From contig NZ_JACHMO010000001.1 of NCBI RefSeq assembly GCF_014205015.1, positions 3,720,001 through 3,784,000 on the forward strand: a stretch of 64,000 bases of DNA. The letters are read 5' to 3'. Of this stretch, positions 29,601 through 47,623 are shown piece by piece (the stretch's first letter is position 1; the number at the start of each line of letters is the position of its first letter). The notes beneath the pieces are model-generated. The model saw only the letters and a list, made by a program, of their open reading frames with translations. It had not been told where the DNA came from and made no database searches. The position numbers and the translations under genes were made by a program. This DNA is from Saccharothrix ecbatanensis (GTDB lineage: Bacteria; Actinomycetota; Actinomycetes; Mycobacteriales; Pseudonocardiaceae).

Positions 29601-31849
29601 GCGACAACACCGGCGAGGTCGACCACGAGCGCAAGACCTTCAGCCACTCCTACGACGCCAACGGCAACCTGCTCACGCTGACCGACGCCTCGCCGGGGGC
29701 GAAGGTCGACGCCTACGCGATGACCTACAACGGCCTCAACCAGCTGGCCAAGGTCGAGGAGAAGCTCGCCGCGGTGGTCAGGGGCACCACGACGTTCACC
29801 TACAACGAGAACGGCACCGTACTCACCCGGGGCCACGACAAGCAGAACTCGGCGTTCCGCTACAACCCGCGTGACCTGGTCGACCAGGTCACCAACACCG
29901 AGACCGGCGGCCAACCCAAGATCACCGGCTACACCTACACCGACCGCGGCCAGGTGCTGCAGGAGACCAAACCCAACGGCAACGAGGTCGTCTACGGCTA
30001 CCACCTCGACGGCGCACTGGCTTCCCAGGTCGAGAGCAAGAGCGACACCGCCAAGACCTTGGTCGCCCAGCACCACATCGAGTACAACGCCAACGGCCAC
30101 CGGAACCGCGACGCGTCCAAGATCCAGAACGCGGACAACACCACCGCGTACCTGGACGAAGTGCGGGAGTACGACTTCGACCCGCTGGACCGGATCCGCA
30201 AGCTGACCAAGAAGTCCGCGGTGGGGGCGGTGCTGGAGACCGAGGACTACGTCCACGACGCCAACAGCAACGTCACCACACAAACGCTCGAAGGCAAGAC
30301 CACCACCTTCAGCTACTACTTCAACCGCCTGCTGACCGCCTCCAGTTCGGGGGCGACCGCGTCCTACAACTACGACCCGTTCGGCCGCCTGGACACCGTC
30401 GCCGGCGGCGGGCAGATCGTCGAGTCGTACTCCTACGACGGCTTCGACCGCACCACCCAACACGGCAAGCTCGACGGCGGGGCGCTGAAGACGACCACCT
30501 ACGCCTACGACCCGCTCGACCGCACCACCTCGAAGACCGCGGACGGCAAGACCACGGACTTCGCTTACCTCGGCCTGACCGACAAGGTCGTCTCCGAGGA
30601 GATCACCGGCCAACTCCAGCGCACCTACCAGTACGACTCCTTCGGCCAGCGCCTCACCCAGATCAAGAAGGACACCGACGGCACCGGCCCTGCGGCGGAG
30701 GAGGACTCCTACTACGGCTACAACCCGCACACCGACGTCGAAACGCTGACCAAGGACAACGGCGACACCCGGGCCACCTACGGCTACACCGCCTACGGCA
30801 AGGATGACACCGAGGCCTTCACCGGCATCGACAAGCCCGAAGCCCAACAACCCGGCAAGGAGCCGTACAACTTCTACCGCTACAACGGCAAGCGCTGGGA
30901 CCCGTCCTCCGGTTCCTACGACATGGGGTTCCGCGACTACAACCCCGGCCTCAACCGCTTCCTCACCCGCGACAACTACAATGGCGCCCTCTCCGACATG
31001 GGACTCGGCGCCGATCCGTTCACCGGCAATCGCTACGCCTTCGTCGGCGGCAACCCCATCAGTCGGGTCGAACTGGACGGTCACCGTCCCGAGGATGAGC
31101 CAGGCTACTGCCTGGGATCCCAGGGTGACTGCGGCATCGACCCGAACGCCGGCAACGCGGTGACCGGTCACTACAGCAACGAGCAGTTGAGTTCGATGGG
31201 CGTGCTGGAAGGGCAGTTCATCAGCAACACCCTGAACGGCAGTGACAGTCCGGAGACGCCGAACAGCAACGCTCCCTATAAGGAGATGACGGTGCTCGAC
31301 GCCGGAGACCCGGGCGTGCAGCAGCTCAACGAACAACTGAGTGCCACTATTGGCGGCGTCTGCGCGACCCTCAACAAACTCGCTTGCCAACTCTTCATGC
31401 ACTACGCGGACCGTTCGGGCACGGACTTCGAGGTCGACCTCGGTGAACTGGTGAAGGACAAGGACTTCACCACGAGGGTGAACGACGAGATGTCCACACT
31501 GGACGGCTTGGCGACGAACGCGTGCCAGGGAGCCGCAGGCACCACCTGTGTGTTCACGGTGGACAGTCGGTGGCAGGACGTCGCGTTCAAGGCGGACCGC
31601 AGCAACAAGCTCGGAATCGGCCACGCCAAGTTCCGCATCCAGGGCACGCTCTCTGTCACTGTCGGGCAGAACGGGAGTTCCGTGCAGAGTTCCTACACGC
31701 TCGGGGTCAACAAGAGGTGGGACTTCGATCCTGATGACGCTGTCGACTACGGGTTTATCTCCCTTGCGCCGTACGCCTCCATGCCGGCCGCCGGTTTGGC
31801 GCAGGAGTACGTGATGCGAGGCACCACCGGAATGACCTATAACCGGTAA
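23690..31849 (+). CDS. Secreted DNRLRE / RHS-repeat protein with cysteine-rich C-terminal tail (polymorphic toxin candidate)
   Basis: 2,719 residues from GTG 23690, close behind a GGGGGG run; an in-frame GTG at 23669 adds seven residues. The signal sequence (LLILSLVAVLTVVG) predicts export. In order: two DNRLRE domains (about 330-505 and 620-800); an Ig-like segment (about 806-930, V-P-V-S-V-T-N-S-T-T-S-T-W); RHS/YD repeats from about 937 to 2463, many with the form Y-D-x-x-G-N-L or T-Y-D-x-x-G-x; a golvesin-like beta domain within them (about 1842-1973). The RHS core closes with N-R-Y-A-F-V-G-G-N-P-I-S-R-V-E-L-D-G-H, the usual junction to a variable tail. The tail (about 255 residues) is unlike known toxins to my eye and holds all six cysteines that I can find in the protein. 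Family knowledge: RHS cages carry a C-terminal toxin; the lipoprotein gene that follows may give immunity. Confidence 0.93.
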   Translation: MRSPRGFSLLSRLLILSLVAVLTVVGVPAGPPLSGPGQLPDLGLSGLWRSVAGWLSPGAAQAAPDEPAAGPAPDARVEPPTRVREVEDRRTSSMRVFQLSNGEFEAEVSARPESFKDGQGRWRPIDTAVRESGKDGYRFGNDSNVFGSLFGDRTDRLVRFQAGDRHVAMGVDVEARNVEPRVEGSRVVYPGVFDGADLAYVVTGEALKEEIVLHKAPADATYRFTLQLGGVTATALPDGAIGFFPTGEGVADGPPLFTMPKPFMFDGAEDRKSPHGRVWSDKVTQTVAQQGSKITVTVTADREWLAEPGRKFPVTIDPTVKLQPTPTTGQDVQIWSDTPTRNDGSSYQLSVGTDPYGVARSLVRFDTSVVPAGTSLSSAKLRLYYDSELETGANNNVHEVRRVTAGWSEDTATWASVNGAFAEAALSTATKQANVGNVWHEWDVRNIAQSWVSGSAVNHGLMVKSTDETLSRGGAIYQAAEFAYNGENENNPKLVLTYGRPSADLKYPTKIYSTGAELNWGPYVDPDPANPADDAVEYQVHRTVFQAFTPSSSTLIAPLAPAATSFTDTTARPTPADSADPFGNAYYYMVAVKTRDGQLIPGPTQVARLPKAGLITQVFHGGTSDTTLSSNRPDTNLDSIGGQPWLMVGNSSATYGRTRAAVKWNDLSAIPAGARIVDADMMLWGFFSAGGGATFDGHPLTRSFTEGQATWNRASTATAWTTPGGDLGAFADQVVGIPNDPNWHIWENAGVVQGWVDDPASNHGFEVKLRDEAGAQQRVLFLSDEAAEPQLRPNLVVTYTQPTAEMTYYAPDTPSLRMIPGDEYTVPVSVTNSTTSTWRAADQVLSYRWNLPDGTDATTGGNRLETALPGDVLPGGTVTVQARVKTPIQSDAGNKREQFVLNWDLRNKTTGTWLSATGGIPALAQNVTVEDPTSDQLGLEKFYSYAGKATGSGSNVLVNQFAGNTVFSYDAFTNPGRGLNSFVRMTYNSMDTSATSLGQGWSLAASGLTRLGTYLELHPKGQDYPSRITLPDGDGTSHTFELNKNGSTDPARWTYDKPAGVHYFVQRDSGTDASRRWKLIRPDRSEFLFDDEGWLTAVKDRNGNEQRYTYTERKSNNQPRKFLAYVNDPHNRQVLTLDYFEKGETSNPKIIDNVQSIKDVSGRTITFTYDDKGLLTQFVDGAGTPQAKTFGFTYDATQGNKNVKLVKITDPRGSATDLAYYTAPVDPKDKWKLQTITDRLGFATGFAYSDPDGTTGSEVQSTVIDAETRTSTFRMDGYGRPTKTTNAKNQATQLEWDADNNVVKLVEDNGAVSTWTYDPKTGYPTSIRDAEAVANNWPATQLGYQTGPDGYTAELTSKTSPEGRAWAFGYDAKGNLTSVTDPKGVPTASPDDYKSVYTYDQFGQLTTSTDANENTTKFSGYDPTGFPGTTTDPYNHSTIAVYDVRGNVTSVKDAFDKVTTVTYDVFGRPLETRVPKNQDKGEFVVSPAPVYDANDNAARSTAPNGAVSTAVYDKADQVTSTTMPKDTSTGPERKSSFGYDKVGNLLTETQPLGNLTPTDPNDYVTRYGYDEIYQLITSTNAKNEKVSYTYDRVGNLVTVVDPRKNATADTADFTTKVTYDLNHRQVTTTDAEGKTEHTGVDKDGNVVSQRDKANTTTTLIYDQRSSLVEARVPHKTGVERITRFEYDEAGNQTRVVTPRGVETTNDPDDFVAATVYDKLNRPIEKLTPFDGDDVRYTTPDKTTYAYDRVGRVSQVSLPPSAGQTARNTTKHTYFDNGWVSTSTDPWDIATAYDYTDLGQQKTRTLTSAGGSSNRTMTWTYFPDGKLASRSDDGVPVGKHVALVDNTDTGFVETAGTWTVRTAGSGYQNTNHRSAPAGTGAATFTWKPVIPQDGTYEVFAKYATGLTGVATNTPYKVDTGTAQTTVPVDQTLNGGQWVSLGRHAFTAGNAAKISVSDAANGMVLADAVKLVRDNTGEVDHERKTFSHSYDANGNLLTLTDASPGAKVDAYAMTYNGLNQLAKVEEKLAAVVRGTTTFTYNENGTVLTRGHDKQNSAFRYNPRDLVDQVTNTETGGQPKITGYTYTDRGQVLQETKPNGNEVVYGYHLDGALASQVESKSDTAKTLVAQHHIEYNANGHRNRDASKIQNADNTTAYLDEVREYDFDPLDRIRKLTKKSAVGAVLETEDYVHDANSNVTTQTLEGKTTTFSYYFNRLLTASSSGATASYNYDPFGRLDTVAGGGQIVESYSYDGFDRTTQHGKLDGGALKTTTYAYDPLDRTTSKTADGKTTDFAYLGLTDKVVSEEITGQLQRTYQYDSFGQRLTQIKKDTDGTGPAAEEDSYYGYNPHTDVETLTKDNGDTRATYGYTAYGKDDTEAFTGIDKPEAQQPGKEPYNFYRYNGKRWDPSSGSYDMGFRDYNPGLNRFLTRDNYNGALSDMGLGADPFTGNRYAFVGGNPISRVELDGHRPEDEPGYCLGSQGDCGIDPNAGNAVTGHYSNEQLSSMGVLEGQFISNTLNGSDSPETPNSNAPYKEMTVLDAGDPGVQQLNEQLSATIGGVCATLNKLACQLFMHYADRSGTDFEVDLGELVKDKDFTTRVNDEMSTLDGLATNACQGAAGTTCVFTVDSRWQDVAFKADRSNKLGIGHAKFRIQGTLSVTVGQNGSSVQSSYTLGVNKRWDFDPDDAVDYGFISLAPYASMPAAGLAQEYVMRGTTGMTYNR

Positions 31850-33670: not shown

Positions 33671-36600
33671 CTAGTCCCGTGAGAGCTGCGGGTCGTCGCT
33701 CGTGGCGAGGGCGCGCAACGTCGCCGCTACCTCCAGCACGCCGGGAGCCCGCAGGAACGAGTAGTGGTCGCCGGGGACGACCACCGAGCGGACCACGTTC
33801 GGCAGGGCCTGCGACCACGCCTCCGCGTCCGCAGCCGACTCCTCCGCGTTGACGACCACCGTCTCCACGTCGATCACCGACGGCGTGTAGTTCGCGATCG
33901 CGCGCAGGTGCGCCTTGTAGACATCGAACCGCCGGTTCATGTCCGCCAGCACGTCGGCGTCGTCGCTGCCCCTCGCCAGCTGCTCAGCCAGCCACCGCAG
34001 CTGCTCGGCCGAGCTCGCGGTCGCCGGGTCGGGCGCGGCGGCGGCGTTCGGACCGAGGGTTCGCGCGGCGTCGGCGACGTAGTAGCCGGCCAGTTCGGCC
34101 TCGGTCTGCGTCACCTCTTCGTGCACCTGGAACGGGGCGTCCATCAGCGCGACGAACGAGACCTGCTCGCCCGCCTCACGCAACCGCTCGGCGACCTTCA
34201 GCGCCACCAAACCGCCGAACGACCACCCTCCCAGCCGGTACGGTCCCGCCGGCTGAGCCGCCCTGATCACCTCGGTGTAGCGGGTGACCATGGCGTCCAG
34301 CGACGCCACCGGTGTGCCGTCCGCGCGCAGGCCCTGGGCCTCGATGCCCCACACCTCGTAGACGTCTGCGAGTTCGCGGGCCAACGACACGTAGCCGTAC
34401 ACCGTGCCGCCGATGGCGTGGATCAGGTACAGCGGGCGGGCGCCCGCGCCGTCGGAGAGCCGGACCAGCGGACCCGAGCCCGCTGCGGCCGACGCCAGCC
34501 GGTCCACGTCCACGTCCACGACCAGCTCGCCGTCTTCCTCGTCCAGCGGCGCGTCCTCCAGGCCGTGCTTCTCCCGCAGGACCGACGCGAGCTGCGCGGT
34601 CGTGGGCGCCAGGAAGATCGCCGTGACGTCGGTGTCGACCGCCAGCTCGGAGCGCAGCCTGGTGACCAGCTGCATCGCCTGCAACGAGTTGCCGCCCAGG
34701 TCGAAGAAGCTGTCGTCGACGCCGACCCGGGGCAGCTTCAGCAGGTCGCCGAACGTGTCGGTCAGCACCGCCTCGATGATGGTGCGCGGCGGAGCGTAGT
34801 TCGCCGAGCCGTCACCGGCTTCGGGCGCGGGCAGCTTGCCGCGGTCCACCTTGCCGTTGGCGTTGAGCGGGAACTTGTCGAGCACCAGCACGTACTGCGG
34901 CACCATGAAGCCCGGCAGCCGGTCTGCCATGTGCAGCCGCAGGTCTGCCGGGGTGGGCGCGGTGCGGTCCGGGTCGACCCGGGCGTAGCCGACGAGCTGC
35001 TTCTGGCCCGCCTGGTCCTCGCGGACCACGATCGCGGCCTGCAACACGTCCGGGTGCAGCGCGAGCACCGCCTCGATCTCGCCGAGTTCCACGCGCAGGC
35101 CGCGGATCTTGACCTGGTCGTCGAACCGGCCGAGGAACTGGATGTTGCCGTCCGCCATGCGCCGCGCCACGTCGCCGGTCTTGTACAGCCGCGCGCCGGG
35201 CACGTCGCTGAACGGGTCCGGGATGAACTTCTCCTCGGTCAGCTCCGGCCGGTTGAGGTAGCCGCGGGCCACGCCGGCGCCACCGAGGTGCAGCTCGCCC
35301 GCCACGCCGATCGGCAGCGGTTCGAGGTTGCGGTCCAGCACGTAGGCGGTGTAATTGGGCAGCGGCAGGCCGATGGGCGGCGGGTCGATGCCGTTGTCGG
35401 TGCACTCCAGCATGGTCGCGCCGACCGTGGTCTCGGTGGGGCCGTACCCGTTGATGAACCGCATCCCCGGCCGCGCCCACTTCTGCACCAGGGCGGAGGA
35501 GAACGCCTCACCGCCCGCGATGACCACGCGCAGGTCCGGGAACTGCTCGTCGGCCAGCAGGTTGAGCACCGCGGGCGGCAGGCACATGAAGGTGATGTGC
35601 TCGTCGCGGATCAGCTCGGCCAGCCGCGGCGGCGACAGCAGCGTCTCGCTGCGGCCCAGCACCAGCGTGGCACCCGACAGCAGCGCGCCGAACATGTCCA
35701 GCACGGACACGTCGAAGTTCAACGACGCGAACTGGAGCACCCGGTCGCCGGGGCCCAGCGGCCAGTGCTCGATCTCGCCGGTGGCGAAGTTGACCGCCTG
35801 CCGGTGCTCGATCACCACCCCCTTGGGCCGGCCGGTCGAACCGGACGTGTAGATCACGTATGCCACGTTGGCCGGGTCGACCAGGTACTCCGGGTTGCTG
35901 TCGTCGAGGGCCGCCAGCTCCTCCCCCAGCCCGTCCACGTCCAGGACGTGCTCGGCGGCGGGTGCGGCGGCGGCGCTCAGCTCGTCGGTGACCACGATCG
36001 GCATGTGCGCGTCCTCGACCATGAACGCGAGCCGGTCGGCCGGGTACTCGGGGTCCAGCGGCACGTAACCGCTGCCCGCCTTGAGGATGCCCATCAACGC
36101 GACCATGCGGTCCACCGAGCGTTGCATGCAGACGCCGACCAGGACCTCGGGGCCGGCGCCCAGCTCGCGCAGCCGCCGTGCGAGTTGGTTGGCCCGAGCA
36201 TTCAGCTCGGTGTAGGTGAGGCCCTCACCGGCCAGCTCCACTGCCTTGCCGTCGGGTGTGGCGGCGACCTGCGCCTGGAACTTCTCGTGCAGCGCCCAGG
36301 ACGGGTACTCGGCGGCGGAGTCGTTCCACTCGACGATCTCGCGCCTGCGGTCGGCCTCGGACAGCAGCGGCAGCCTGGACAGGGGCCGCTGCACGTCGGC
36401 CACGATGCCCTCGAGCAGCACGCCGAAGTGGCCGAGCAGCCGGCGCACCGTCTCGCCGTCGAACAGCGCCGAGGCGTAGGACGCGCCGATGGCGAGGTGG
36501 TCGCCGTAGTCCACTGCGGACAGCAGTAGGTCGAACTTGGCGGCCGTGCCCTCGATCGCCTCCTGCCGCACCACCAGGTCGTGCGCCCGCAGCTCGGTGT

Positions 36601-37768
36601 CGTAGCTCTCGGCCAGGGTGAACCCGACCTGGAAGATCGGGTGCCTGCTGGGGTCGCGGTGCACCCGCAGCGCGTCCACCAACTTGGCGAACGGCAGGTC
36701 CTGGTGCGCGTAGGCGTCCAGCACCGTGGTGCGCACCTGGTCCAGCAGGTCCGGAAACGTCGGGTCGCCGGACAGGTCGGAGCGGATGGCCAGGGTGTTG
36801 ACCAGGTAGCCGATCAACGGGGCCAACTCGCTGCGGCTGCGGTTGGCGCTCACCGTGCCGACCACGACGTCGTCCTGGCCGCTGAAGCGGTGCAGCAGCA
36901 CCTGGAAGGCCGCCATCAGGGCGACGAACAGCGTGGTGTTGCCGGTGCGGCTGATGGCCTTGAGGCCGTCGAGCAGCTCCTTGTCGAAGGTGATGGCCTC
37001 GACCCCGCCGTCGTAGGTCTGCACCAGGGGTCGCGGCCGGTCGGTGGGCAGCTGGAGGCCGGCCACCCCGGCCAGCTTCTTCTGCCAGTAGCCGACCAGG
37101 TCGTCGAGCACGGTCCCCTGGAGGCGTTCCTGCTCCCACACCGCGTAGTCGGCGAACTGGATCGCCAGCTCCTCCACTGCGGCCTCGGCGCCGGTGATCT
37201 CGGCCTCGTAGAGGGCGACCAGCTCGTTGGTCAGCACGCCGAAGGACCACCCGTCGAAGACGGTGTGGTGCACGACGATCACCAGCGCGTGGGTGTCCTC
37301 GGCGGTGCGCACCAGGGTCGTGCGCACCAGCGGGCCTTCGGCCAGCGAGAACGTGCGGCCACCCTCCTCGGCGAACAACCGCTTCACCTCGGCGTCCCGC
37401 GCCTGCTGGTCCAGGCAGGTCAGGTCGACCACCGCCAGACCGCGCGGCGCGGCCTGGTCGATCACCTGGCGGGGCAGGCCGTCCACCGCGACCAGCCTGG
37501 TGCGCAGGATCTCGTGCCGGGCCGGCAGCCGGTCCACGGCGCGGCCGAGCGCGTCGACGTCCAACGCGCCCTCCAGCCACAGGGCGCCCGCGATGTTGTA
37601 GGTGGACTGGTCGGGCGCGAGGTGGTCGATGAACCACAACTGCTGCTGGCCGTACGACAACGGGATGTGCGTCAGGCCCTCGGGCCGCCGAGGGATCCCC
37701 ACCGCCGCGTCCGCCCTGCCCTTGCGGAGCCGCGCGACCAGGGATGCGCGCTGCGAATCAGACAACAT
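33671..37768 (-). CDS. Single-module NRPS: condensation - adenylation - thiolation - thioesterase
   Basis: 1,365 residues. C domain with H-H-T-V-F-D-G at 167-173 intact; A domain with A3 Y-T-S-G-S-T-G-R-P-K-G near 640, N-G-Y-G-P-T-E, Y-K-T-G-D and N-A-N-G-K-V-D-R; T domain with L-G-G-N-S-L near 1025; thioesterase with G-W-S-F-G-G near 1181. No epimerase. By hand alignment to PheA the specificity residues read D-V-L-C-V-A-G-V-G; I know no standard match. ATG 37768 lies inside the end of the MFS gene (11-bp overlap), last in the operon. A stand-alone module with both C and TE needs either a donor from elsewhere or iterative use. Inference: the substrate is a diaminobutyrate-derived hydroxamate made by the upstream enzymes. 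Confidence 0.93.
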   Translation of the reverse strand: MLSDSQRASLVARLRKGRADAAVGIPRRPEGLTHIPLSYGQQQLWFIDHLAPDQSTYNIAGALWLEGALDVDALGRAVDRLPARHEILRTRLVAVDGLPRQVIDQAAPRGLAVVDLTCLDQQARDAEVKRLFAEEGGRTFSLAEGPLVRTTLVRTAEDTHALVIVVHHTVFDGWSFGVLTNELVALYEAEITGAEAAVEELAIQFADYAVWEQERLQGTVLDDLVGYWQKKLAGVAGLQLPTDRPRPLVQTYDGGVEAITFDKELLDGLKAISRTGNTTLFVALMAAFQVLLHRFSGQDDVVVGTVSANRSRSELAPLIGYLVNTLAIRSDLSGDPTFPDLLDQVRTTVLDAYAHQDLPFAKLVDALRVHRDPSRHPIFQVGFTLAESYDTELRAHDLVVRQEAIEGTAAKFDLLLSAVDYGDHLAIGASYASALFDGETVRRLLGHFGVLLEGIVADVQRPLSRLPLLSEADRRREIVEWNDSAAEYPSWALHEKFQAQVAATPDGKAVELAGEGLTYTELNARANQLARRLRELGAGPEVLVGVCMQRSVDRMVALMGILKAGSGYVPLDPEYPADRLAFMVEDAHMPIVVTDELSAAAAPAAEHVLDVDGLGEELAALDDSNPEYLVDPANVAYVIYTSGSTGRPKGVVIEHRQAVNFATGEIEHWPLGPGDRVLQFASLNFDVSVLDMFGALLSGATLVLGRSETLLSPPRLAELIRDEHITFMCLPPAVLNLLADEQFPDLRVVIAGGEAFSSALVQKWARPGMRFINGYGPTETTVGATMLECTDNGIDPPPIGLPLPNYTAYVLDRNLEPLPIGVAGELHLGGAGVARGYLNRPELTEEKFIPDPFSDVPGARLYKTGDVARRMADGNIQFLGRFDDQVKIRGLRVELGEIEAVLALHPDVLQAAIVVREDQAGQKQLVGYARVDPDRTAPTPADLRLHMADRLPGFMVPQYVLVLDKFPLNANGKVDRGKLPAPEAGDGSANYAPPRTIIEAVLTDTFGDLLKLPRVGVDDSFFDLGGNSLQAMQLVTRLRSELAVDTDVTAIFLAPTTAQLASVLREKHGLEDAPLDEEDGELVVDVDVDRLASAAAGSGPLVRLSDGAGARPLYLIHAIGGTVYGYVSLARELADVYEVWGIEAQGLRADGTPVASLDAMVTRYTEVIRAAQPAGPYRLGGWSFGGLVALKVAERLREAGEQVSFVALMDAPFQVHEEVTQTEAELAGYYVADAARTLGPNAAAAPDPATASSAEQLRWLAEQLARGSDDADVLADMNRRFDVYKAHLRAIANYTPSVIDVETVVVNAEESAADAEAWSQALPNVVRSVVVPGDHYSFLRAPGVLEVAATLRALATSDDPQLSRD

Positions 37769-39113
37769 GACCGTCTTCCCGATCCTTCCGTACCGTTCCG
37801 TCGGGCTCGCTGTCCCGGACCGGGGGTTGTTTGTCGATGGGGTTTTCGTCTTCTGGTGGCGAGTCCGGGATCGCGGGGAGCGCGAACACCGGGGAGAACA
37901 GCAGCCAGATGGTGGGCAGGGCGAGGCCGACCACGCCGATGGTGAGGCCGAGCCGGAGCCCGAAGGCGGACGCCAGCACGCCGCCCAGCAGCGCGCCGAG
38001 CGGGATGGTGCCGAACAGCAGGAGCCGGTAGCTGGCGTTCATCCGGCCCAGCAGGCCGCTCGGCGTGACCGACTGGCGCAGGGTCAGCGCGTTGACGTTG
38101 AACATCGCCAGTGTCGCGCCGTGCAGGCCCAGCCCCACTGCGAGCACCGCGAGCGACCACGGCTGCGTGCCGGTCGCGATGAGCAGGAGGAACGGCGAGG
38201 TGCAGGCGACGAGCGTGGTGACGGCCAGGGTGCGGCCAAGGCGGAGCCGGCGGGTCACGCGCGGCGTGAGCACCGCGCCGATCAGGGCTCCGATCGCGCC
38301 CGCGCCGATGACGAGGCCGAGCTGGGCGGAGTTCAGGCCCAGCTCCCGCACGGCGTAGATGGCGAACAGCGTGACGACCACGTTCTCGAACAGGTTGAAC
38401 GTGGCCGACTGAGTGGCGAGGTTGCGCAGGATGCGGTTGCCGAACACCGCGCGCAGGCCTTCGCCGATCGAAGTGAGGACCGGGGTCTTCTCGGCGGGCA
38501 CGGCGGGCGGCGGTTCCGGTTTGCGGATCGACACCAGCGTGACCGCGGAGACGAGGTACGAGAACGTGGTGATCACCAGCGCGATCGGCGCGGTGAGCAC
38601 CCCGATCAGCAACCCTGCCAGGCCGGGGCCGCCGATCCCGGCGATGGAGTAACTGATCTGGATCTTGCTGTTCGCCTCGGCCAGGTGGCGTCGTTCCACC
38701 AGGCCCGGGACGTAGGACAGCGAGCCCACGTCGAACATCACCGTCAGCAGCCCCAGCAGCAGGGCCACGACGTAGATCAGCTCCATGGTCAGGATTCCGC
38801 CGACCGCGGCCAGCGGCACAACCGCGATCAGCGCGGCGCGGCACAGGTTGCTGGCGACCAGCACCGGCTTGCGCCGGTGTCGGTCGAACCACACGCCCAC
38901 GAACAGCGACAACGCCGCGTACGGGGTGAAGCGCGCGACGTTGAACAACCCGATCTCGAACGCGCTGGCCTGCAAGGTCACCACGGCCACGAGCATCAAG
39001 CTCAGTTCGCTGACCTGGGCGCCGACCAGCGACACGGTCTCACCGCTCCAGAACTTCACGAAGTCCCGGTCGCGCAGCAGACCGCTCGGTGCCGCGGTGG
39101 GTGCGTCAGGCAT
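37758..39113 (-). CDS. MFS transporter, probable exporter of the operon product
   Basis: 451 residues, about twelve transmembrane helices, with the early loop G-V-W-F-D-R-H-R-R-K-P-V between helices 2 and 3 typical of MFS drug/siderophore exporters (MFS_3/EntS type: start L-R-D-R-D-F-V-K-F-W-S-G-E-T-V-S). It overlaps aspartate kinase by 8 bp and the NRPS by 11 bp. EntS-like members export siderophores; this fits the enzymes around it. Confidence 0.9.
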   Translation of the reverse strand: MPDAPTAAPSGLLRDRDFVKFWSGETVSLVGAQVSELSLMLVAVVTLQASAFEIGLFNVARFTPYAALSLFVGVWFDRHRRKPVLVASNLCRAALIAVVPLAAVGGILTMELIYVVALLLGLLTVMFDVGSLSYVPGLVERRHLAEANSKIQISYSIAGIGGPGLAGLLIGVLTAPIALVITTFSYLVSAVTLVSIRKPEPPPAVPAEKTPVLTSIGEGLRAVFGNRILRNLATQSATFNLFENVVVTLFAIYAVRELGLNSAQLGLVIGAGAIGALIGAVLTPRVTRRLRLGRTLAVTTLVACTSPFLLLIATGTQPWSLAVLAVGLGLHGATLAMFNVNALTLRQSVTPSGLLGRMNASYRLLLFGTIPLGALLGGVLASAFGLRLGLTIGVVGLALPTIWLLFSPVFALPAIPDSPPEDENPIDKQPPVRDSEPDGTVRKDREDGHVV

Positions 39114-40428
39114 GGGTCGGTGCCGTCACGGCACTCGTCACCTCCTCGTTGTGTTCGAACTCGTGCAGGGTGAACGCGTCGTGCAGCGCCTGCGCCGCGC
39201 GGTCCACGTTGGTGGCCAGCACGTGGCAGGTGACCCGATTCGGTGTGCGGGCGAGCAGGTGCACGTCGATCCCGTTGCGCTCCAGGGCGGTGAGCGCGGT
39301 GGCGATGACCTCGGAGCGGTTGGCCCCCATCGCGCTCACGACGCTCACGCTGCCCAGCTCCGCGCGCACCGCGACCTCTCCGCCCACTTCGGCCAGCGCG
39401 GACACCAGCTGCGGTGCGGGCGTGTCGGGTGCGGTGAACCGCACCGCGTCGGCGTCGCGGAAGATCGAGCCGATCGCCACCTCCCGCTGCGCCAACGCGG
39501 CCGACACCGCGGCGGGGGAAACGCCCGTGACGGTGTAGATCGGGTCGTGGTGGATGTGCGCCACGCCGCACACGTGCGGCTCCTCCAGCATCGGCGACCC
39601 GCGACGCACCCACGTGCCCGGGTCGAACGTGAAGCTCGACCGCACGTGGATGTCGATGCCGTGCGCCGCCGCCAGTGCGACGGCCCGCGTCTGGAGCACC
39701 TTCGCGCCCGCGTCGGCGAGTTGCAGCATCTCGTCGTGGCTGACCGAGGGGAGCATCCGCGCCCCGGCCACCACCCTCGGGTCGGCGGTGAACACGCCGG
39801 AGACGTCGGTGAAGATGTCGCACTCCCGCACGCCCAGCGCTGCCGCCAGCGCCACGGCCGAGGCGTCGGAGCCGCCCCGGCCGAGGGTGGTGACGTCGCC
39901 CCGGTCGGACACGCCCTGGAACCCGGTCACCAGGACGATCGCGTCCTGCTCCAGCGCCTCGACGATCCGCCGCGGGTCGATCTGGAGCAGACGGGCGCTG
40001 CCGTGCGCGTCATCGGTGCACACGCCCGCCTGCGGACCCGACAGTGACACGGCACGCTCGCCCAGTTCCCGCACCGCGATGGCGGCCAGCGCGCAGGAGA
40101 TCGACTCGCCGACCGACAGCAGCGCGTCCAGCTCACGGGGGTCGGGTTCGGCGGAGAGTTCCATGGCCAACCCGACCAGGTCGTCGGTGGAGCCGCCCAT
40201 CGCGGACAGCACGGCCACCACCTGCTTGCCCTCACGCTTGGCCGCGACCAGTCGGGCCGCGACGGCGCGCAGCCGGTCGACGTCGCCGACCGACGTGCCG
40301 CCGAACTTCCACACCACGCGCTGCGGCGGCGAACCGCCCCCGTCGACCGGGCCGACCAGTCGACGGGCGGGCGGCAACGGCAGTTCGGCGCGCAGCACCG
40401 CGTCGTCGACCACGGACACCGCGTTCAC
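39106..40428 (-). CDS. Aspartate kinase (pathway-dedicated copy)
   Basis: 440 residues from GTG 40428, overlapping the previous stop by GTGA. Kinase motifs: V-V-W-K-F-G-G-T-S-V-G near 37-47, L-S-V-G-E-S-I-S and L-G-R-G-G-S-D-A-S-A-V-A-L; two ACT domains occupy the last 140 residues (I-Y-T-V-T-G-V-S; V-S-V-V-S-A-M-G-A-N). It makes aspartyl-4-phosphate, the first step to aspartate semialdehyde and, with the aminotransferase here, 2,4-diaminobutyrate. No semialdehyde dehydrogenase gene is in the operon; the housekeeping one would have to serve. A dedicated kinase suggests relief from feedback control. Confidence 0.93.
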   Translation of the reverse strand: MNAVSVVDDAVLRAELPLPPARRLVGPVDGGGSPPQRVVWKFGGTSVGDVDRLRAVAARLVAAKREGKQVVAVLSAMGGSTDDLVGLAMELSAEPDPRELDALLSVGESISCALAAIAVRELGERAVSLSGPQAGVCTDDAHGSARLLQIDPRRIVEALEQDAIVLVTGFQGVSDRGDVTTLGRGGSDASAVALAAALGVRECDIFTDVSGVFTADPRVVAGARMLPSVSHDEMLQLADAGAKVLQTRAVALAAAHGIDIHVRSSFTFDPGTWVRRGSPMLEEPHVCGVAHIHHDPIYTVTGVSPAAVSAALAQREVAIGSIFRDADAVRFTAPDTPAPQLVSALAEVGGEVAVRAELGSVSVVSAMGANRSEVIATALTALERNGIDVHLLARTPNRVTCHVLATNVDRAAQALHDAFTLHEFEHNEEVTSAVTAPTHA

Positions 40429-41303
40429 CCGCCGACCGCGGCCGAGGCGTGGGACTGCCGGGCGATCGCGCGCTCGTAGACCAACTCCACCCAGTTGGCG
40501 AAGAAGACCCGGCTGGCGCTGCGCCACTGGCACACCGGCTGGCCGAGGTCGACGTTGGCCGGCGGCAGCACGTTGGGCAGGCCCTTGCCGACGTCGCGCT
40601 TGTACTCGTCGGCCAGCCGGGAACCCTCGTACTCCGGGTGCCCGATGTGCATCAACGCGGTGTGGTCCACCGACTCGGCGATCACCGTATCCGCCGGGCT
40701 GCCCGCCCGGGCGAGGACCCGCAGCCGCCCCTCGACGACTGCGGTATCCACAGTGGACTCGTCGAAGCCCGCGTAACGGCTGTGCGCGGTCCAAAACCGG
40801 TCGTCCAGGCCTTTGCCGATCACGTGGTCGCCGACCAGCAGGTCGGTCTCGTAGGCGCCGGACACCTTCTGCTCGTAGATCGCCGAGGACAGGCCCAGCA
40901 GCAGGTGCCCGACCGCCAGGGCGCCCCAGCACAGGCCGAGCACCGGAACGTCGCGCTCCGCGAGCGGGCGGATCATGTCCGCGATCTCGTCCAGGTAGCG
41001 CACCTCGGAGAACGGCAGGTGCTCGACCGCGGCACCGGTGATGATGATCGCGTCGAGTTCGCCCGCGTCCTCGATCGGCACGTAGAGCCGCTCGATGTAC
41101 TGGGGGGAGTCCAGCGAGTACCGCCGGTCGCGCATCCTGATCATCACCGGTTCGAACGGCGCCGCCGCAGCGAACTGCGGCAGCAACATCCCGGCGAACT
41201 GCTCGGCGTGCGGCATCAGGTTGGCGATCCCGATGCGCGGTGGCTGGTGCAGGGCGGCCGGGCGCACGTGGGGCAGGTGTGGCCTGGGCAGGTGCGAGGT
41301 CAT
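40425..41303 (-). CDS. MetA-like acyltransferase (homoserine O-acyltransferase family)
   Basis: 292 residues; ATG 41303 overlaps the aminotransferase stop, and its own stop overlaps aspartate kinase. MetA hallmarks: I-A-N-L-M-P early, nucleophile Cys in G-L-C-W-G-A-L-A, His and Glu in G-H-P-E-Y-E. At the acyl-donor position it reads T-G-A-A-V-E-H-L-P-F; in MetA proteins Glu at this site goes with acetyl-CoA and Gly with succinyl-CoA, so acetyl transfer is predicted. In this operon the acceptor may be the hydroxylamino group of N4-hydroxy-diaminobutyrate and not homoserine. That is inference; a methionine role is the alternative. Confidence 0.85.
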   Translation of the reverse strand: MTSHLPRPHLPHVRPAALHQPPRIGIANLMPHAEQFAGMLLPQFAAAAPFEPVMIRMRDRRYSLDSPQYIERLYVPIEDAGELDAIIITGAAVEHLPFSEVRYLDEIADMIRPLAERDVPVLGLCWGALAVGHLLLGLSSAIYEQKVSGAYETDLLVGDHVIGKGLDDRFWTAHSRYAGFDESTVDTAVVEGRLRVLARAGSPADTVIAESVDHTALMHIGHPEYEGSRLADEYKRDVGKGLPNVLPPANVDLGQPVCQWRSASRVFFANWVELVYERAIARQSHASAAVGG

Positions 41304-42682
41304 TGCGCGACAACCTCCGTCAGGTCTTCCTCCACAGAGCGCAGGGCGGCCGTGATGACGGCCAACGCCTCGCCCGCGGTGTGCTCGGTGATGTTCAACG
41401 GCGGCAGCAGCCGGACGACGCAGTCCTCGCGCCCGCCGATCTCCAGGATCAGACCGCGGCGCAGCGCGGCCCGCTGCAACCGCAGCGCCACCTCCGACGA
41501 GGTCGCGCCGCCGAAGCCGCGCATCTCGACGCCGATCATCAGCCCGAGCCCGCGCACGTCGTCGACGATGCTCGACCCCAGTGCCGCGGCCCGCAGCCCG
41601 TCCAGCAGCTGTTCGCCCCTGGTCCGGACGTTGTCCAGCAGGTGCTCCCGCTCCAGCACGTCCAGGTAGGTCACGCCGCTGGCGAACGCGAGGTTGTTGC
41701 CGCGGAAGGTGCCGATGTGGCTGCCCGGCGTCCAGGTGTCCAGCCGCTTGTTGTAAAGGATGATCGACACCGGCAGGCCCATGCCCGACAGGCCCTTGGA
41801 GGCGATGATCACGTCGGGCTCGATCCCGTACTGCTCGAACGCGAACCAGGTGCCGGTGCGACCGCAGCCGGTCTGCACCTCGTCCACGATCAGCGGGATG
41901 TCCTGCGCCTTGGCCTCGCGGGCGATCTCGCGCACGAACTCGACCGGCGCCGGGATCGAGCCGCCCTCGCCCTGGACCAGCTCCAGGATGATCGCGGCGG
42001 GCTTGGGCACACCGCCGTGGGTGTCCCGCAGGGTGTTGGTCAGCAGCTGCCCGCAACGGGTGCCGCAGCTGTCCGGCTTGAGGTTCAGTGGGCAGCGGTG
42101 GCAGTAGGCGAACGGCGCGAAATGCACGCCGGGCAGTAGGTTGTGCAGCCCTTCCTTGGGCTGGGTCTCCGACGTGAGCGACATCGCGGCGTGCGAGGAC
42201 CCGTGGTAGGAGCCCTGGAAGGCGATCACGCCGCCGCGGCCGGTGGCCTTCTTGCACAGCTTGACCGCGGCCTCCACGCCGTCGCCGCCGGTCGGCCCGC
42301 AGAAGTGGATCTTCATGTCGTCCCTGATGCTCTCCGGGAGCATCGAGAGCTGGCGGCGCTTGAACTCCTCGCGCACCGGCGTCGGGAAGTCCAGGCCGTG
42401 GGTCAGTCTGGTCAGCTGCTCCTGCACGGTGGCGATCAGCTCGGGGTGGTTGTGGCCCAGGGCCAGCACACCCGCGCCGGACAGGAAGTCGATGTAGACC
42501 CGGCCGTCCACGTCGGTGATGTACGAGCCGGAGGCCCGGTCGATCGCCACCGGCAGTTTGCGCGGGTAGGTGCGCGCGTTGGACTCGTTCGCCGCCTGGC
42601 TCTCCAGCAGCACGCGGCCCAGCGGGCCGGGGACGGACAGGTCCTGCTCGACGGCGGACTCGGAAACGTCGATCGTGGTCAT
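41300..42682 (-). CDS. Diaminobutyrate-2-oxoglutarate aminotransferase (class III, PLP)
   Basis: 460 residues from ATG 42682, with GAGGGAGG upstream. Class-III aminotransferase with D-F-L-S-G-A-G-V-L-A-L-G-H-N-H-P near the start, F-Q-G-S-Y-H-G-S-S-H-A, I-V-D-E-V-Q-T-G-C-G-R-T-G and the PLP lysine in A-S-K-G-L-S-G-M-G. This is the pattern of DABA aminotransferases of siderophore and NRPS pathways and of EctB. It converts aspartate semialdehyde plus glutamate to L-2,4-diaminobutyrate. No ectA or ectC is adjacent, so ectoine is not the product. Confidence 0.9.
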   Translation of the reverse strand: MTTIDVSESAVEQDLSVPGPLGRVLLESQAANESNARTYPRKLPVAIDRASGSYITDVDGRVYIDFLSGAGVLALGHNHPELIATVQEQLTRLTHGLDFPTPVREEFKRRQLSMLPESIRDDMKIHFCGPTGGDGVEAAVKLCKKATGRGGVIAFQGSYHGSSHAAMSLTSETQPKEGLHNLLPGVHFAPFAYCHRCPLNLKPDSCGTRCGQLLTNTLRDTHGGVPKPAAIILELVQGEGGSIPAPVEFVREIAREAKAQDIPLIVDEVQTGCGRTGTWFAFEQYGIEPDVIIASKGLSGMGLPVSIILYNKRLDTWTPGSHIGTFRGNNLAFASGVTYLDVLEREHLLDNVRTRGEQLLDGLRAAALGSSIVDDVRGLGLMIGVEMRGFGGATSSEVALRLQRAALRRGLILEIGGREDCVVRLLPPLNITEHTAGEALAVITAALRSVEEDLTEVVAQ

Positions 42683-42696
42683 CGTCCTGCCCTCCC

Positions 42697-44106
42697 TCAG
42701 CGCGTCGAGCCCGCGGGGACCGCGAGCGCGTAGGAGTGGTCGACGAGGGTGCCGGCATCGGCGGTGAGTGCGCGGCGCACGCTCTGCACGATCTCCTTGG
42801 ACCGCAGCGCGAGCAGGCTGAACGAACCGGCGTCGCCGAGGCCGTGCGTGGTCTCGCACAGCCCGTTGATGTAGATCGGCGGGATGCCGCGGGCGCTGGA
42901 GGCGGCCTCGACGCGGTAGTCGAACGCGACCGACAGGCCGAGCTGGTCGTCCACCCGCAGGATGCCCGCGAGGTCGGCCAGCAGCGGCGGCAGCTGCTCC
43001 TCCCGCTCGTGCACACCCAGGTCGCGGTAGCCGGTGGCGAGAATGAGCCGGTCCACGGGCAGCGCGTCGTGCTCACCGGTGATCTGCTCGACCATCTCCA
43101 GCACGACGCGGTCGCCGTCGACGCGCGCGCCGTCGATGCGGCGGTTGGTCCGCATGGTCAGCCGGCTGCGGCCATCCAGCTCGTCCTCGTGGATGCGCAT
43201 GTAGAGCGCGTCGATGACGTCGCGATCCGCGGAAGAGTAGTTCGTCGGCCGGAGCTGGTCGCGCAGCCGCTGCTTGCCCTCGGGCGAAGCGTTGAAGTAG
43301 TACGAGACGAACTCCGGGAAGTACACCTCCTCAGAGAACGGGCTGGTGTCCTTGAGGCGGTAGCCGTAGCCGGACATCACGTTGACGATCTTGGCCTTGG
43401 GCAGCCGGCCCACCAGGTCCAGCACCACCTCGGCCGAACTCTGGCTGGCGCCGACCACCGCGATCGTGCCGGTGTAGTCGTGGTCCAGACCGGCGATGCC
43501 GTTGAGGTAGGTGGAGGTGTGGAACACCGAGGGCGTGTCCAGGTGCCGGAACACGGGCGGGATGTTGGCCGTGCGGCCGGGCGCCACGACGATCGAGCGG
43601 GCGTGGCAGACCCGGCCGTCGGCCGTACGGGACTCGACCAGGCGCTGCCCGCCGGAGGTCCGGACCACGCTGACGCCGTCGACGTCGCGGTCGTACTCCA
43701 CATCGGCGGGCACCTGCTCGGCGACCCACTGGATGTAGCGGGCGAACTCCTTGCGCAGCGGGAAGTGGCTGGGCAGGTTCAGGTGCTTGAACAGTCTGCC
43801 GTTCTCGTGCAGGTAATTGGTGAAGGTGTAGCGGCTGCGCGGGTTGCGCGGCGTCACCAGGTCCCGGATCGGGCTGTTCTGGATGTCCGCGCCATCCAGC
43901 AGCATCCCCGGCTGCCAGTGGGTGACCGACGACCGCTCTAAGAATTTGACCCTGGCTGCGGGCCACAGCTCGTCCAGGGCCACCGCAAGCGCGATGTTCG
44001 CCGGTCCGAACCCGACGCAGACCAGGTCAAGAACATCGGATGGATCAACGTCCACGAGTCGGACCCCCAGAACGTCCGCACCGGGACCGCTCCCCTCGTT
44101 CGACAT
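42697..44106 (-). CDS. FAD/NADPH-dependent amine N-hydroxylase (lysine N6 / ornithine N5 type)
   Basis: 469 residues, ATG 44106. FAD site V-G-F-G-P-A-N-I-A-L-A near 34, NADPH site V-V-G-A-S-Q-S-S-A-E near 220, and the late L-I-L-A-T-G-Y-R-D signature of siderophore N-monooxygenases. Reaction: NADPH + O2 hydroxylation of a terminal amine to a hydroxylamine, the step before hydroxamate formation. With a diaminobutyrate aminotransferase 14 bp downstream, the likely substrate is L-2,4-diaminobutyrate, which is shorter than the usual lysine or ornithine. First gene of the six-gene operon; a palindrome lies about 56 bp upstream. Confidence 0.92.
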   Translation of the reverse strand: MSNEGSGPGADVLGVRLVDVDPSDVLDLVCVGFGPANIALAVALDELWPAARVKFLERSSVTHWQPGMLLDGADIQNSPIRDLVTPRNPRSRYTFTNYLHENGRLFKHLNLPSHFPLRKEFARYIQWVAEQVPADVEYDRDVDGVSVVRTSGGQRLVESRTADGRVCHARSIVVAPGRTANIPPVFRHLDTPSVFHTSTYLNGIAGLDHDYTGTIAVVGASQSSAEVVLDLVGRLPKAKIVNVMSGYGYRLKDTSPFSEEVYFPEFVSYYFNASPEGKQRLRDQLRPTNYSSADRDVIDALYMRIHEDELDGRSRLTMRTNRRIDGARVDGDRVVLEMVEQITGEHDALPVDRLILATGYRDLGVHEREEQLPPLLADLAGILRVDDQLGLSVAFDYRVEAASSARGIPPIYINGLCETTHGLGDAGSFSLLALRSKEIVQSVRRALTADAGTLVDHSYALAVPAGSTR

Positions 44107-45337: not shown

Positions 45338-47623
45338 ATGGCCAAGCGCGCCCAGCGGTTCGGTAACCTGCCTGCCGAGGCGCCGAGTTTCGTCGGCCGC
45401 CGTGACGAGTTGGCCGAGGTCAGGAGGAAGCTGACCGCCGCGCGTCTGGTCAGCCTGGTCGGTCCGGGTGGTGTGGGCAAGACCCGCCTGGCGGTCCGTA
45501 TCGCCACCGATCTCGGGCGAGGATTCCCCGGGGGCGCCTGGCTGGTGGAGCTGGCCAACGTGCGTGACCCGGCGCTGGTCACCAATGCGGTGATGGCAGC
45601 GCTCGACCTGCGTGACCAGGCCGCGACCGAGCCGGTGAATCTGCTGCGGTCGTACCTGCGGGACAAGGAACTGTTGCTGGTGCTCGACAACTGCGAGCAT
45701 CTGCTCGACGCGACAGCGCGGATGGTCGATGACGTGCTCCGAGCGGCGCCCGGCGTACGCGTGGTCGCGACCAGCCGGGAACCGCTGTCCGTGGCGGGTG
45801 AGCACGTGCTGCCGGTGCCGCCGCTGGATCTCCCGTCGCCACACGCCGAATCGCTCGCCCGGACGAGCTTGAACGACGCGGTCCGGCTGTTCGTCGAGCG
45901 GGCTGCCGAGGCGACGGGTCGCTTCGAGCTGACCGAGGCGAACCGGGCCGCCGTGGTCGACGTGTGCCGGCGGCTGGACGGGCTGCCGCTGGCCATCGAA
46001 CTGGCGGCGGTGCGGACCCGTGCGCTGAGCCCGGACCAGATCCGGGACCGGTTGAGCGACCGGTTCGAGCTGCTCACCGGCGGCAACCGGGCGGCGCTCC
46101 CGCGCCACCAGACGCTGCACACCGCGATCGATTGGAGCTACAACCTGCTCACGCCGGCCGAGCAGACGTTGTTGATGCGGCTGTGCGTGTTCGCCGGCCG
46201 ATACACGGTCGACGACGTGGAGGCCGTCTGCTGCTCCGACGACCTGCCGGCGGCGCGAGCGCTGGACCTGCTGTCGGCGTTGCTCGACAAGTCGTTGCTG
46301 GTCAAGGAGGACGCCGCCGGGCTTGCCTGCTACCGGCTGCCCGAAACGATGCGGGAGTACGCGCGGCGCAAGCTGCGCGAGTCCGGCGACGCGGACGCCG
46401 TGGAGCTGCGCTGCGCCGACTACTACCTGTCCCGGTGTCGGCAGCTCGCCGCGACCGGTCGGTACCGGCTGCTGCCGTCGCTGGCGTGGGTGGACCTGGA
46501 GATCGACAACATCCGGGCCGTCTTGCGAACGAGCATCGACCGCGACGACCTCCGCCGCGCGGTCGGCGTGGCGACGGACCTGATCTGGTACTGGATCACC
46601 CGGGCGACCACCGAGGGCGTGCGCTGGCTCGACGAGTTGCTGGCCAGGCCGGTCGCCGATCCCTGGACGTATTTCGCGCGGGGCTTCCTGGGCGTGGTCC
46701 AGAACGATCCGAACGCGGCGACACGCGCGCTCGATCGTGGCGTGACCGCTGCCCGCGTGGCCGGACTGCCGGACGCGCTGTCGCAAACCCTTGCCATGGC
46801 GTCGATCGCGGCGACCGGGCGTGGCGACCGGGCGTCCGCACAACGACTTCTCGATGAGTCCCGGACCGTCGCCGGCACGCTGGACGATTTGGGTGCCACC
46901 CTCATGACGTATCAGGCTCAGGCACTGAAAAGCCTCGCCGATGGCGACTTCGCCGCGGCCACGGCAGCGGCCGCCGAAGGCGTCCGGCTCAGCCGCGAGG
47001 CAGGCGACCTCTACAGCCTCGGCATGATGTTGATGAACCAGGGCTACGCGGCGCTCCGGTCGGGTGCCCTGCGGGATGCCGAGGTGTGGCTCGCCGAAGG
47101 GTTGCGGATCGCCCACCAGATCGACGACCGGGTGGCGCAGTGCTACCTCCTCGGTGCGCTCGGGTGCTGCGCCGCAGCCGAACGCAGGCCGCAGCCGGCC
47201 GCGGAACTTCTCGGTGCGATGGAGAACCTGCGTGCCGAGATCGGGGCCACTGTCCTCCCGAGCATGGCGCCGGCGCTGGCCCAGGCCACCCGGTCAGCCA
47301 CCGCAGCGCTCGGTGCGGCGGCGTTCGACTCGGCCTACCAGACCGGCCGGCAACTGAGCCGGGACGCTGCGGTACGGCTCGCGCTGCGCGCGCCCGCTGC
47401 CACAGCACCAGTGGCCGAATCGAGCTCTGGCATCCTCAGCCGACGTGAACTCGATGTCGCGCGGCTTGTGCCCGAAGGTCTGAGCAACAAGGAGATCGGC
47501 GCCCGGCTGTTCATCTCCGAGCGCACGGTCGAGAGTCATGTCCGCAACATCCTGACCAAGCTCGGCTTCACCTCGCGAACCCAGGTCGCCATCTGGATGG
47601 CGGCGCAGAGCGCGCTGGGGTGA
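45338..47623 (+). CDS. LuxR-family transcriptional regulator with AAA/NB-ARC-like ATPase and TPR region
   Basis: 761 residues. Residues 15-300: F-V-G-R-R-D-E-L, Walker A G-P-G-G-V-G-K-T-R near 44, Walker B L-L-L-V-L-D-N-C-E-H near 112, then G-L-P-L-A-I-E-L-A-A and the winged-helix linker. Residues 430-680 are helical, TPR-like. A LuxR HTH ends the protein (L-S-R-R-E-L-D-V-A-R-L, T-V-E-S-H-V-R-N-I-L-T-K-L-G). Family knowledge: ATP- and ligand-dependent activators, often of secondary metabolism. ATG 45338 lies exactly 6 nt after TACCTT (45326-45331), so the mRNA is probably leaderless. Divergent from the membrane gene; targets unknown. Confidence 0.92.
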   Translation: MAKRAQRFGNLPAEAPSFVGRRDELAEVRRKLTAARLVSLVGPGGVGKTRLAVRIATDLGRGFPGGAWLVELANVRDPALVTNAVMAALDLRDQAATEPVNLLRSYLRDKELLLVLDNCEHLLDATARMVDDVLRAAPGVRVVATSREPLSVAGEHVLPVPPLDLPSPHAESLARTSLNDAVRLFVERAAEATGRFELTEANRAAVVDVCRRLDGLPLAIELAAVRTRALSPDQIRDRLSDRFELLTGGNRAALPRHQTLHTAIDWSYNLLTPAEQTLLMRLCVFAGRYTVDDVEAVCCSDDLPAARALDLLSALLDKSLLVKEDAAGLACYRLPETMREYARRKLRESGDADAVELRCADYYLSRCRQLAATGRYRLLPSLAWVDLEIDNIRAVLRTSIDRDDLRRAVGVATDLIWYWITRATTEGVRWLDELLARPVADPWTYFARGFLGVVQNDPNAATRALDRGVTAARVAGLPDALSQTLAMASIAATGRGDRASAQRLLDESRTVAGTLDDLGATLMTYQAQALKSLADGDFAAATAAAAEGVRLSREAGDLYSLGMMLMNQGYAALRSGALRDAEVWLAEGLRIAHQIDDRVAQCYLLGALGCCAAAERRPQPAAELLGAMENLRAEIGATVLPSMAPALAQATRSATAALGAAAFDSAYQTGRQLSRDAAVRLALRAPAATAPVAESSSGILSRRELDVARLVPEGLSNKEIGARLFISERTVESHVRNILTKLGFTSRTQVAIWMAAQSALG

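Follow-up and report, generated by a model that had tools for sequence, protein, structure and literature searches.

A conserved six-gene actinobacterial operon predicted to build a hydroxamate peptide on diaminobutyrate

What product is encoded by an operon that combines an amine N-hydroxylase, a single-module non-ribosomal peptide synthetase (NRPS) and a MetA-like protein of the homoserine acyltransferase type? The question is raised by a stretch of 64,000 nucleotides from Saccharothrix ecbatanensis (contig NZ_JACHMO010000001.1, positions 3,720,001 to 3,784,000), hereafter the window, in which six genes of the minus strand occupy positions 33671..44106. Examination of these genes and of their counterparts in other actinobacteria suggests that the operon probably directs the synthesis of a small peptide from N4-acetyl-N4-hydroxy-2,4-diaminobutyrate. 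The gene set, the domain order of the synthetase, its intact motifs and their conservation can be read directly from the DNA. The host genome is a single contig of 9.69 Mb (G+C 68.8%). In the order of transcription, the six genes are:

42697..44106, minus strand: FAD/NADPH amine N-hydroxylase of the Lys/Orn monooxygenase family, 469 amino acids (PF13434, 289.8 bits)
41300..42682, minus strand: class-III aminotransferase of the diaminobutyrate--2-oxoglutarate type (dat), 460 amino acids (TIGR00709)
40425..41303, minus strand: MetA-like protein (homoserine O-acyltransferase, HTS), 292 amino acids (PF04204, 160.4 bits for a cut-off of 27)
39106..40428, minus strand: monofunctional aspartate kinase with a GTG start, 440 amino acids (NF005154 and TIGR00657, both over cut-off)
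37758..39113, minus strand: predicted MFS exporter, 451 amino acids (TIGR00900 and EntS models match below cut-off)
33671..37768, minus strand: single-module NRPS with condensation, adenylation, thiolation and thioesterase domains (C-A-T-TE), 1365 amino acids (Condensation, AMP-binding, PP-binding, Thioesterase)

The pathway set out below is inferred as regards every substrate, the acyl group, how many units are joined, export and the binding of metal. Aspartate would be converted to aspartyl phosphate, driven by a kinase with a weakened feedback site, and then to the semialdehyde by the aspartate-semialdehyde dehydrogenase of the host, which is encoded outside the operon. The dat-type aminotransferase would yield L-2,4-diaminobutyrate, from which the flavin hydroxylase would form N4-hydroxy-diaminobutyrate. 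The MetA-like enzyme would then transfer an acetyl group from acetyl-coenzyme A (acetyl-CoA), via its catalytic cysteine, to N4, giving the hydroxamate. The adenylation domain would load N4-acetyl-N4-hydroxy-diaminobutyrate, the condensation domain would join copies of it, and the thioesterase would free a linear or cyclic dimer or trimer for export by the MFS protein.

Gene order and spread of the operon

The original prediction, made from the sequence alone, had described six minus-strand genes spaced by 14 bp or overlapping by 4-11 bp. The coordinates of the open reading frames (ORFs) and the profile assignments confirm this layout, including the extent and order of the genes, with intergenic distances from the hydroxylase to the NRPS of +14, -4, -4, -8 and -11 bp. 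The comparison of gene neighbourhoods that it had proposed gave seven further actinobacterial genomes with the six genes in order. The MetA-like protein was used for a pattern scan of one genome per species (84,980 species), which returned 22 loci. Four of these (L002-L005) carry all six genes in identical order, at 53-79% identity: L002 is Streptomyces ochraceiscleroticus, L003 Paractinoplanes rishiriensis, L004 Streptomyces sp. DvalAA-14 and L005 Nucisporomicrobium flavum. When the family of L003 was searched, 5 of 354 genomes matched the MetA-like protein at E 1e-40; two were L003 and L005, and the search added three new loci (L104, L105 and L106) with the six genes in order at 58-74% identity. 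In total, eight clusters, that of the window and those of the seven other genomes, share the same gene order, and besides the family of the window at least the Streptomycetaceae and the Micromonosporaceae carry the operon. A chance arrangement of ORFs is ruled out by these eight conserved copies of the six-gene set.

Outside these clusters, relatives of the MetA-like protein are rare. A sample of the phylum gave matches in 3 of 396 genomes at E 1e-30, the window included, and the 397 genomes of the window's order gave five other matches at E 1e-20, all MetA-type and 29-34% identical. A plasmid search with the same protein returned 46 records, every one below 60% identity. The trees of the hydroxylase and of the MetA-like protein agree on the main groupings, and in both the window pairs with S. 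ochraceiscleroticus and the other Streptomyces copy is placed elsewhere, a pattern which suggests that the operon may have been transferred between lineages as one unit.

Supply and hydroxylation of diaminobutyrate

Two genes of the operon would provide the building block. The aminotransferase matches TIGR00709 (dat) with 417.5 bits, over the cut-off of 401.6; its best-scoring model, NF005393, gives 499.6 bits, under a cut-off of 671. Besides the operon kinase, the genome of the window encodes another aspartate kinase, at 7.72 Mb, which we take as the housekeeping copy. In an alignment of the operon kinases of five clusters, a 15-residue stretch of the first ACT repeat is shorter by 7 residues in four of the five and by 4 in L004, with additional gaps in both ACT repeats; the full stretch is kept in the 7.72-Mb paralogue and in LysC of C. 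glutamicum. The solved structures of the C. glutamicum wild type (3aaw) and of a mutant that we take to be relieved of feedback (3ab4) differ in this same loop, and a weakened feedback of the operon kinase is therefore likely.

In SidA, the carboxylate of the substrate is bound by Lys107, and Asn293, Asn323 and Ser469 are also important for binding the substrate; for Lys107 and Asn293 this importance has been shown by mutation (PMC7347517, PMC10696468). Alignment to SidA places two altered residues in the operon hydroxylase:

43864..43866, minus strand: codon of Arg81, equivalent of SidA Lys107 (carboxylate anchor); Arg in 8 of 8 clusters
43330..43332, minus strand: codon of Glu259, equivalent of SidA Asn293 (substrate binding); Glu in 8 of 8 clusters

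The four SidA positions thus read Arg, Glu, Asn and Ser in all eight clusters, two of the four being changed, so that no cluster keeps the complete ornithine/lysine-type substrate anchor of SidA. A class-level search found matches at E 1e-60 or better in 48 of 394 genomes, that of the window included. Among its 56 matches, 29 outside relatives were aligned: L076-L078, a second gene of L077, and 25 of the 26 loci of L050-L075 (L058 was removed by a length filter). The column of Lys107 holds Lys in 25 of them and Arg in four, and that of Asn293 holds Asn in 26 and Asp or Glu in three, which are L076, L077 and L078. The hydroxylases of these three loci are 46-48% identical to the operon enzyme and share an Arg plus Asp/Glu signature; the other 26 have Asn throughout, with Lys in 25 and Arg in one. 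In the hydroxylase tree the operon enzymes, eight in all, make up a single clade (97/99), grouped with L076-L078 (100/99). At all three of these loci the hydroxylase has nearby a MetRS-like gene and one for a DAO-type FAD oxidoreductase, and at two of them the MetRS-like protein carries a cupin part. MetRS-like genes are linked with hydrazines (PMC12971057).

Because the operon hydroxylases form their own clade with Arg/Glu residues, and have their relatives beside MetRS-like genes, they represent by these sequence features a separate subfamily, and by its residues the enzyme is not a plain lysine or ornithine hydroxylase. The side chains of Arg and Glu are longer than those of Lys and Asn, as a shorter substrate might need. 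Siderophore N-hydroxylases usually take ornithine or lysine, and the operon could in principle be an ordinary ornithine- or lysine-type hydroxamate cluster with diaminobutyrate as a second, unmodified building block. The enzyme does fall in the Lys/Orn family, its best solved relatives are named as lysine and ornithine hydroxylases, and two supply genes alone do not prove which amine is hydroxylated. However, its anchor residues are unlike those of 25 of the 29 aligned outside relatives, and two different residues are hard to place because the synthetase has only one adenylation domain; we regard this explanation as quite unlikely.

The three related loci are themselves small operons (L076:9012-16475, L077:7767-15840 and L078:9976-17401) containing the hydroxylase with Arg plus Asp/Glu, the MetRS-like gene and the DAO-type oxidoreductase; L077 has two tandem hydroxylases, and L076 and L078 an ATP-grasp ligase. 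Their products are likely of the hydrazine type. On the opposite strand of L077, about 5 kb from the hydroxylase pair, an EctB, or ectoine-type diaminobutyrate aminotransferase, scores over its cut-off (L077:2683-3969) and is probably an unrelated ectoine gene. The genome of the window carries three further lysine/ornithine-type hydroxylase genes (G000:C1:3560470, 1617629 and 5583828). One of these loci, in the region 1.618-1.638 Mb, includes an NRPS with the adenylation code DMENLGLINK, which we take to be a hydroxyornithine code.

The MetA-like protein and the synthetase module

The MetA-like protein (ACYLTRANSFERASE) keeps Cys125, His222 and Glu224, together with Glu94, in all eight clusters; Glu233 and Arg236 are also conserved. 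The Cys, His and Glu residues have catalytic roles in MetA. Glu94 corresponds to position 111 of E. coli MetA, where, as Zubieta is said to have found in 2008, a glutamate denotes the use of acetyl-CoA. In the tree the eight operon proteins form their own clade (100/100). The alignment and tree were built without L021, L022 and L023, whose matches are distant, split or cut, and the tree carries a long-branch warning, which makes the branching of its three groups uncertain. The protein of the window is about 26-41% identical to full-length members of the other clades. Nine positions, Ala33, Ala92 and Leu129 among them, do not vary across the five clusters compared and differ from both other clades; Ala92 adjoins Glu94 and Leu129 is near Cys125. 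The equivalog cut-offs of MetA are not reached (MetA_acetyl 132.9 against 460.5 bits, MetA_succinyl 130.5 against 495 bits), a failure to be read cautiously, since the protein of L006, beside MetY, also misses them with 236 bits.

The fit of such an enzyme to the proposed step may lie in the substrate. N4 of N4-hydroxy-diaminobutyrate would take the chain position of the homoserine oxygen. Only minor changes might then be needed for a homoserine-acyltransferase fold to acylate it, which would explain the recruitment of a MetA-type enzyme.

The NRPS consists of a single module, with the following domains:

36344..37672, minus strand: condensation domain (Pfam, 323 bits)
34814..36295, minus strand: adenylation domain, ten-residue code DVLCIGGVGK, identical in 8 of 8 clusters
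34583..34768, minus strand: thiolation (carrier) domain (Pfam)
33734..34438, minus strand: thioesterase domain (Pfam)

The motifs HHTVFDG, LGGNSLQ and GWSxGG are intact in all eight clusters. The closest solved relatives of the condensation domain are Txo2, Txo1, tyrocidine synthetase 3 and entry 5u89; the solved relatives of the thioesterase include ABBFA_003403, the best, and also NocB, Vlm2 and EntF. Adenylation codes were collected from the surroundings of nine further hydroxylase genes and from NRPS regions serving as background. Matches of fewer than 250 profile positions were dropped, and domains cut by the ends of a region may be lost; four of the 35 hydroxylase-flanking matches do not start with Asp and are probably other ligases. 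All five cluster adenylation domains in this comparison have Gly at positions 301, 322 and 331 together. The same triple glycine occurs in two of the 35 hydroxylase-flanking matches, both with the code DINYWGGIGK, and in none of the 15 background matches. DINYWGGIGK is presumably the code for acyl-hydroxyornithine.

With one condensation and one adenylation domain, self-condensation would be the simplest use of the module. A larger NRPS including the neighbouring gene was considered and ruled out: that gene, on the opposite strand just beyond the NRPS (23669-31849 of the window), encodes a protein of 2726 amino acids that combines RHS repeats with a Golvesin domain at its C-terminus. In four Micromonosporaceae-group clusters, L003 (17305-18120), L005, L104 and L105, the NRPS is followed by a thioesterase-like stretch.

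The reaction order of the original prediction, from aspartate by way of diaminobutyrate to an acylated hydroxamate and a peptide, is therefore largely borne out by independent features of the sequence: a supply line from aspartate to diaminobutyrate (the dat aminotransferase and the short-loop kinase), an altered hydroxylase anchor, a putative acetyl-type MetA-like transferase and the triple glycine of the adenylation domain. This does not extend to iteration of the module or to a siderophore function.

Several observations weigh against the proposed pathway. The closest outside kin of the hydroxylase (46-48%) are located in hydrazine-type gene sets and not in hydroxamate sets. The MetA-like protein might accordingly O-acylate the hydroxylamine, the alpha-amine, perhaps carrier-bound, then displacing the acyloxy group to form an N-N bond and give pyrazolidine-3-carboxylate for use by the NRPS. 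The hydroxylase clade is sister to enzymes beside MetRS-like and FAD-oxidoreductase genes at three of three loci, and MetRS-like genes are tied to hydrazines (PMC12971057). Neither a MetRS-like gene, a cupin nor another recognised N-N enzyme was found among the six genes, and the adenylation code has its triple glycine in common with two hydroxylase-linked domains. MetA-family enzymes normally acylate oxygen, a point in favour of this route, but in N4-hydroxy-diaminobutyrate it is N4, not the hydroxyl, that would occupy the position of the homoserine oxygen. We consider such a route unlikely. Pyrazolidine-3-carboxylate is the five-membered counterpart of piperazate, and it is slightly less likely still that the MetA-like protein is a new catalyst of N-O activation and N-N formation, providing NRPS peptides of this residue without KtzT or MetRS-like enzymes.

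A second difficulty comes from methionine metabolism. The genome of the window has no full match to MetX, only two fragments of 20-23 bits, and a full match is also missing from all four of the cluster relatives checked, out of seven; the MetA-like protein could therefore also serve methionine. It might even be the homoserine acetyltransferase of that pathway, or a dual enzyme, the hydroxylamine being acylated by other means or remaining unacylated, as it would by ring closure onto its own carboxyl to 3-amino-1-hydroxypyrrolidin-2-one. The genome of the window contains no HTS besides the operon copy, and 10 of the 11 other congeners searched have a MetX match of more than 350 bits, which is under the model cut-off, as in all control genomes. 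On the other hand, the genome of the window is the only one among 25 of its genus with an HTS protein of any kind, and neither MetX nor HTS shows up in congener G783, whose genome is 98% complete in about 270 contigs. Long MetX matches are uncommon in the genus to which L002 belongs (9 of 31 genomes, HTS being outside this search), so that some other route may exist; relatives of the MetA-like protein are, as said, rare in the phylum.

The neighbourhood of the gene also bears on this. All eight members found of the clade sit within the operon, between the aminotransferase and kinase genes, and no sulfhydrylase or methionine gene is among the six genes. The nearest other clade consists mostly of Chloroflexota. 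At all four of its loci inspected, of 15 (three Chloroflexota and one record titled Prochlorococcus), the gene directly upstream is MetY, and these proteins are therefore probably methionine enzymes. A role of the operon protein in methionine synthesis is possible and not required; the explanation in which it is the homoserine acetyltransferase of the strain, or serves both pathways, and leaves the acylation of the hydroxylamine to another route or to none seems unlikely. The original prediction had named methionine synthesis by the MetA homologue as an objection to its own proposal; the objection is weakened, yet kept alive by the missing full MetX.

Two further points concern the module. The triple glycine is absent from 33 of the 35 hydroxylase-flanking matches, and is therefore not a general mark of hydroxamate modules; and a single module without a partner carrier leaves chain growth unexplained. 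The remaining ones concern iron. A search of the 500 bases upstream of the operon gave no box of the IdeR/DmdR type in the eight clusters; the best matches reach 9-10 of 19 positions and, in the five clusters compared with shuffles, do not exceed the shuffled means. Scans of flanking ORFs in the window and in L002-L005 showed no gene recognisable as one for ferric-siderophore uptake or release; a PF01547 solute-binding protein and a PF00528 permease in the flank of L003 are taken by us as a sugar-type pair. These two negative results leave a siderophore function of the product unproven. A secreted peptide, metal-binding or bioactive, whose genes are under control specific to the pathway would suit the data no less than a siderophore of iron starvation.

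Upstream of the operon in the window, a divergent gene at 45338-47623 encodes a LuxR-type regulator with an NB-ARC domain. A SARP/NB-ARC regulator follows the NRPS in L003 and L005.

Comparison with known systems

Hydroxamate NRPS clusters of the coelichelin, erythrochelin and vicibactin type resemble the operon in having a flavin N-hydroxylase, an acyl transfer, an NRPS with a terminal thioesterase and an exporter (PMC12971057). A hydroxylase and an NRPS stand in one operon, as in such clusters, in all eight cases. The operon differs from the siderophore clusters of this kind in its supply of diaminobutyrate instead of ornithine or lysine, in its one module, and in the lack of an iron box and of recognised uptake genes in the scans described above. 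Such siderophore clusters generally use a GNAT or a formyltransferase, and the MetA-fold acyltransferase differs from both.

Two known products deserve comparison. Rhodotorulic acid is a cyclic dimer of N5-acetyl-N5-hydroxyornithine (PMC9854754). Such a two-unit acetyl-hydroxamate ring is one possible form of the operon product, but rhodotorulic acid is fungal and ornithine based, and the side chains of the operon product would be one carbon shorter. Imaqobactin, a Variovorax lipopeptide, is listed as an amphiphilic mixed hydroxamate/alpha-hydroxycarboxylate siderophore (PMC6836290). A small single-module operon would not be expected to make it. Imaqobactin reportedly carries an iron-binding group derived from diaminobutyrate.

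Among enzyme families, the MetA-like protein shares with MetA/HTS proteins the profile, the Cys-His-Glu triad, the acetyl-type Glu and Glu233/Arg236, but the operon copies form their own clade, are found only within the operon and have no MetY neighbour. Hydrazine-forming clusters, in which an N-hydroxylase occurs with a MetRS-like protein, often with a cupin, and an FAD oxidoreductase, are alike in their sister hydroxylase clade and its Arg plus Asp/Glu signature; the operon lacks the MetRS-like protein, the cupin and the FAD-dependent DAO-type oxidoreductase and has an NRPS and a MetA-like gene instead.

No described cluster with a matching gene set was found in the openly licensed literature searched, MIBiG lying outside this comparison. 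The operon is most likely a conserved variant of the hydroxamate-type NRPS cluster, built on N4-acetyl-N4-hydroxy-diaminobutyrate. If this is correct, it would represent a hydroxamate pathway based on diaminobutyrate instead of the usual ornithine or lysine, and the MetA fold of primary metabolism would have been recruited as a hydroxamate-forming acyltransferase through substrate isosterism, its substrate being a homoserine look-alike. One genome-mining survey detects most peptide hydroxamates by models of ornithine or lysine hydroxylases (PMC12971057), and clusters based on diaminobutyrate could therefore escape such a search or be given a wrong label. The Arg/Glu signature, the adenylation code and the eight loci provide handles with which more clusters of this kind may be found and tested.

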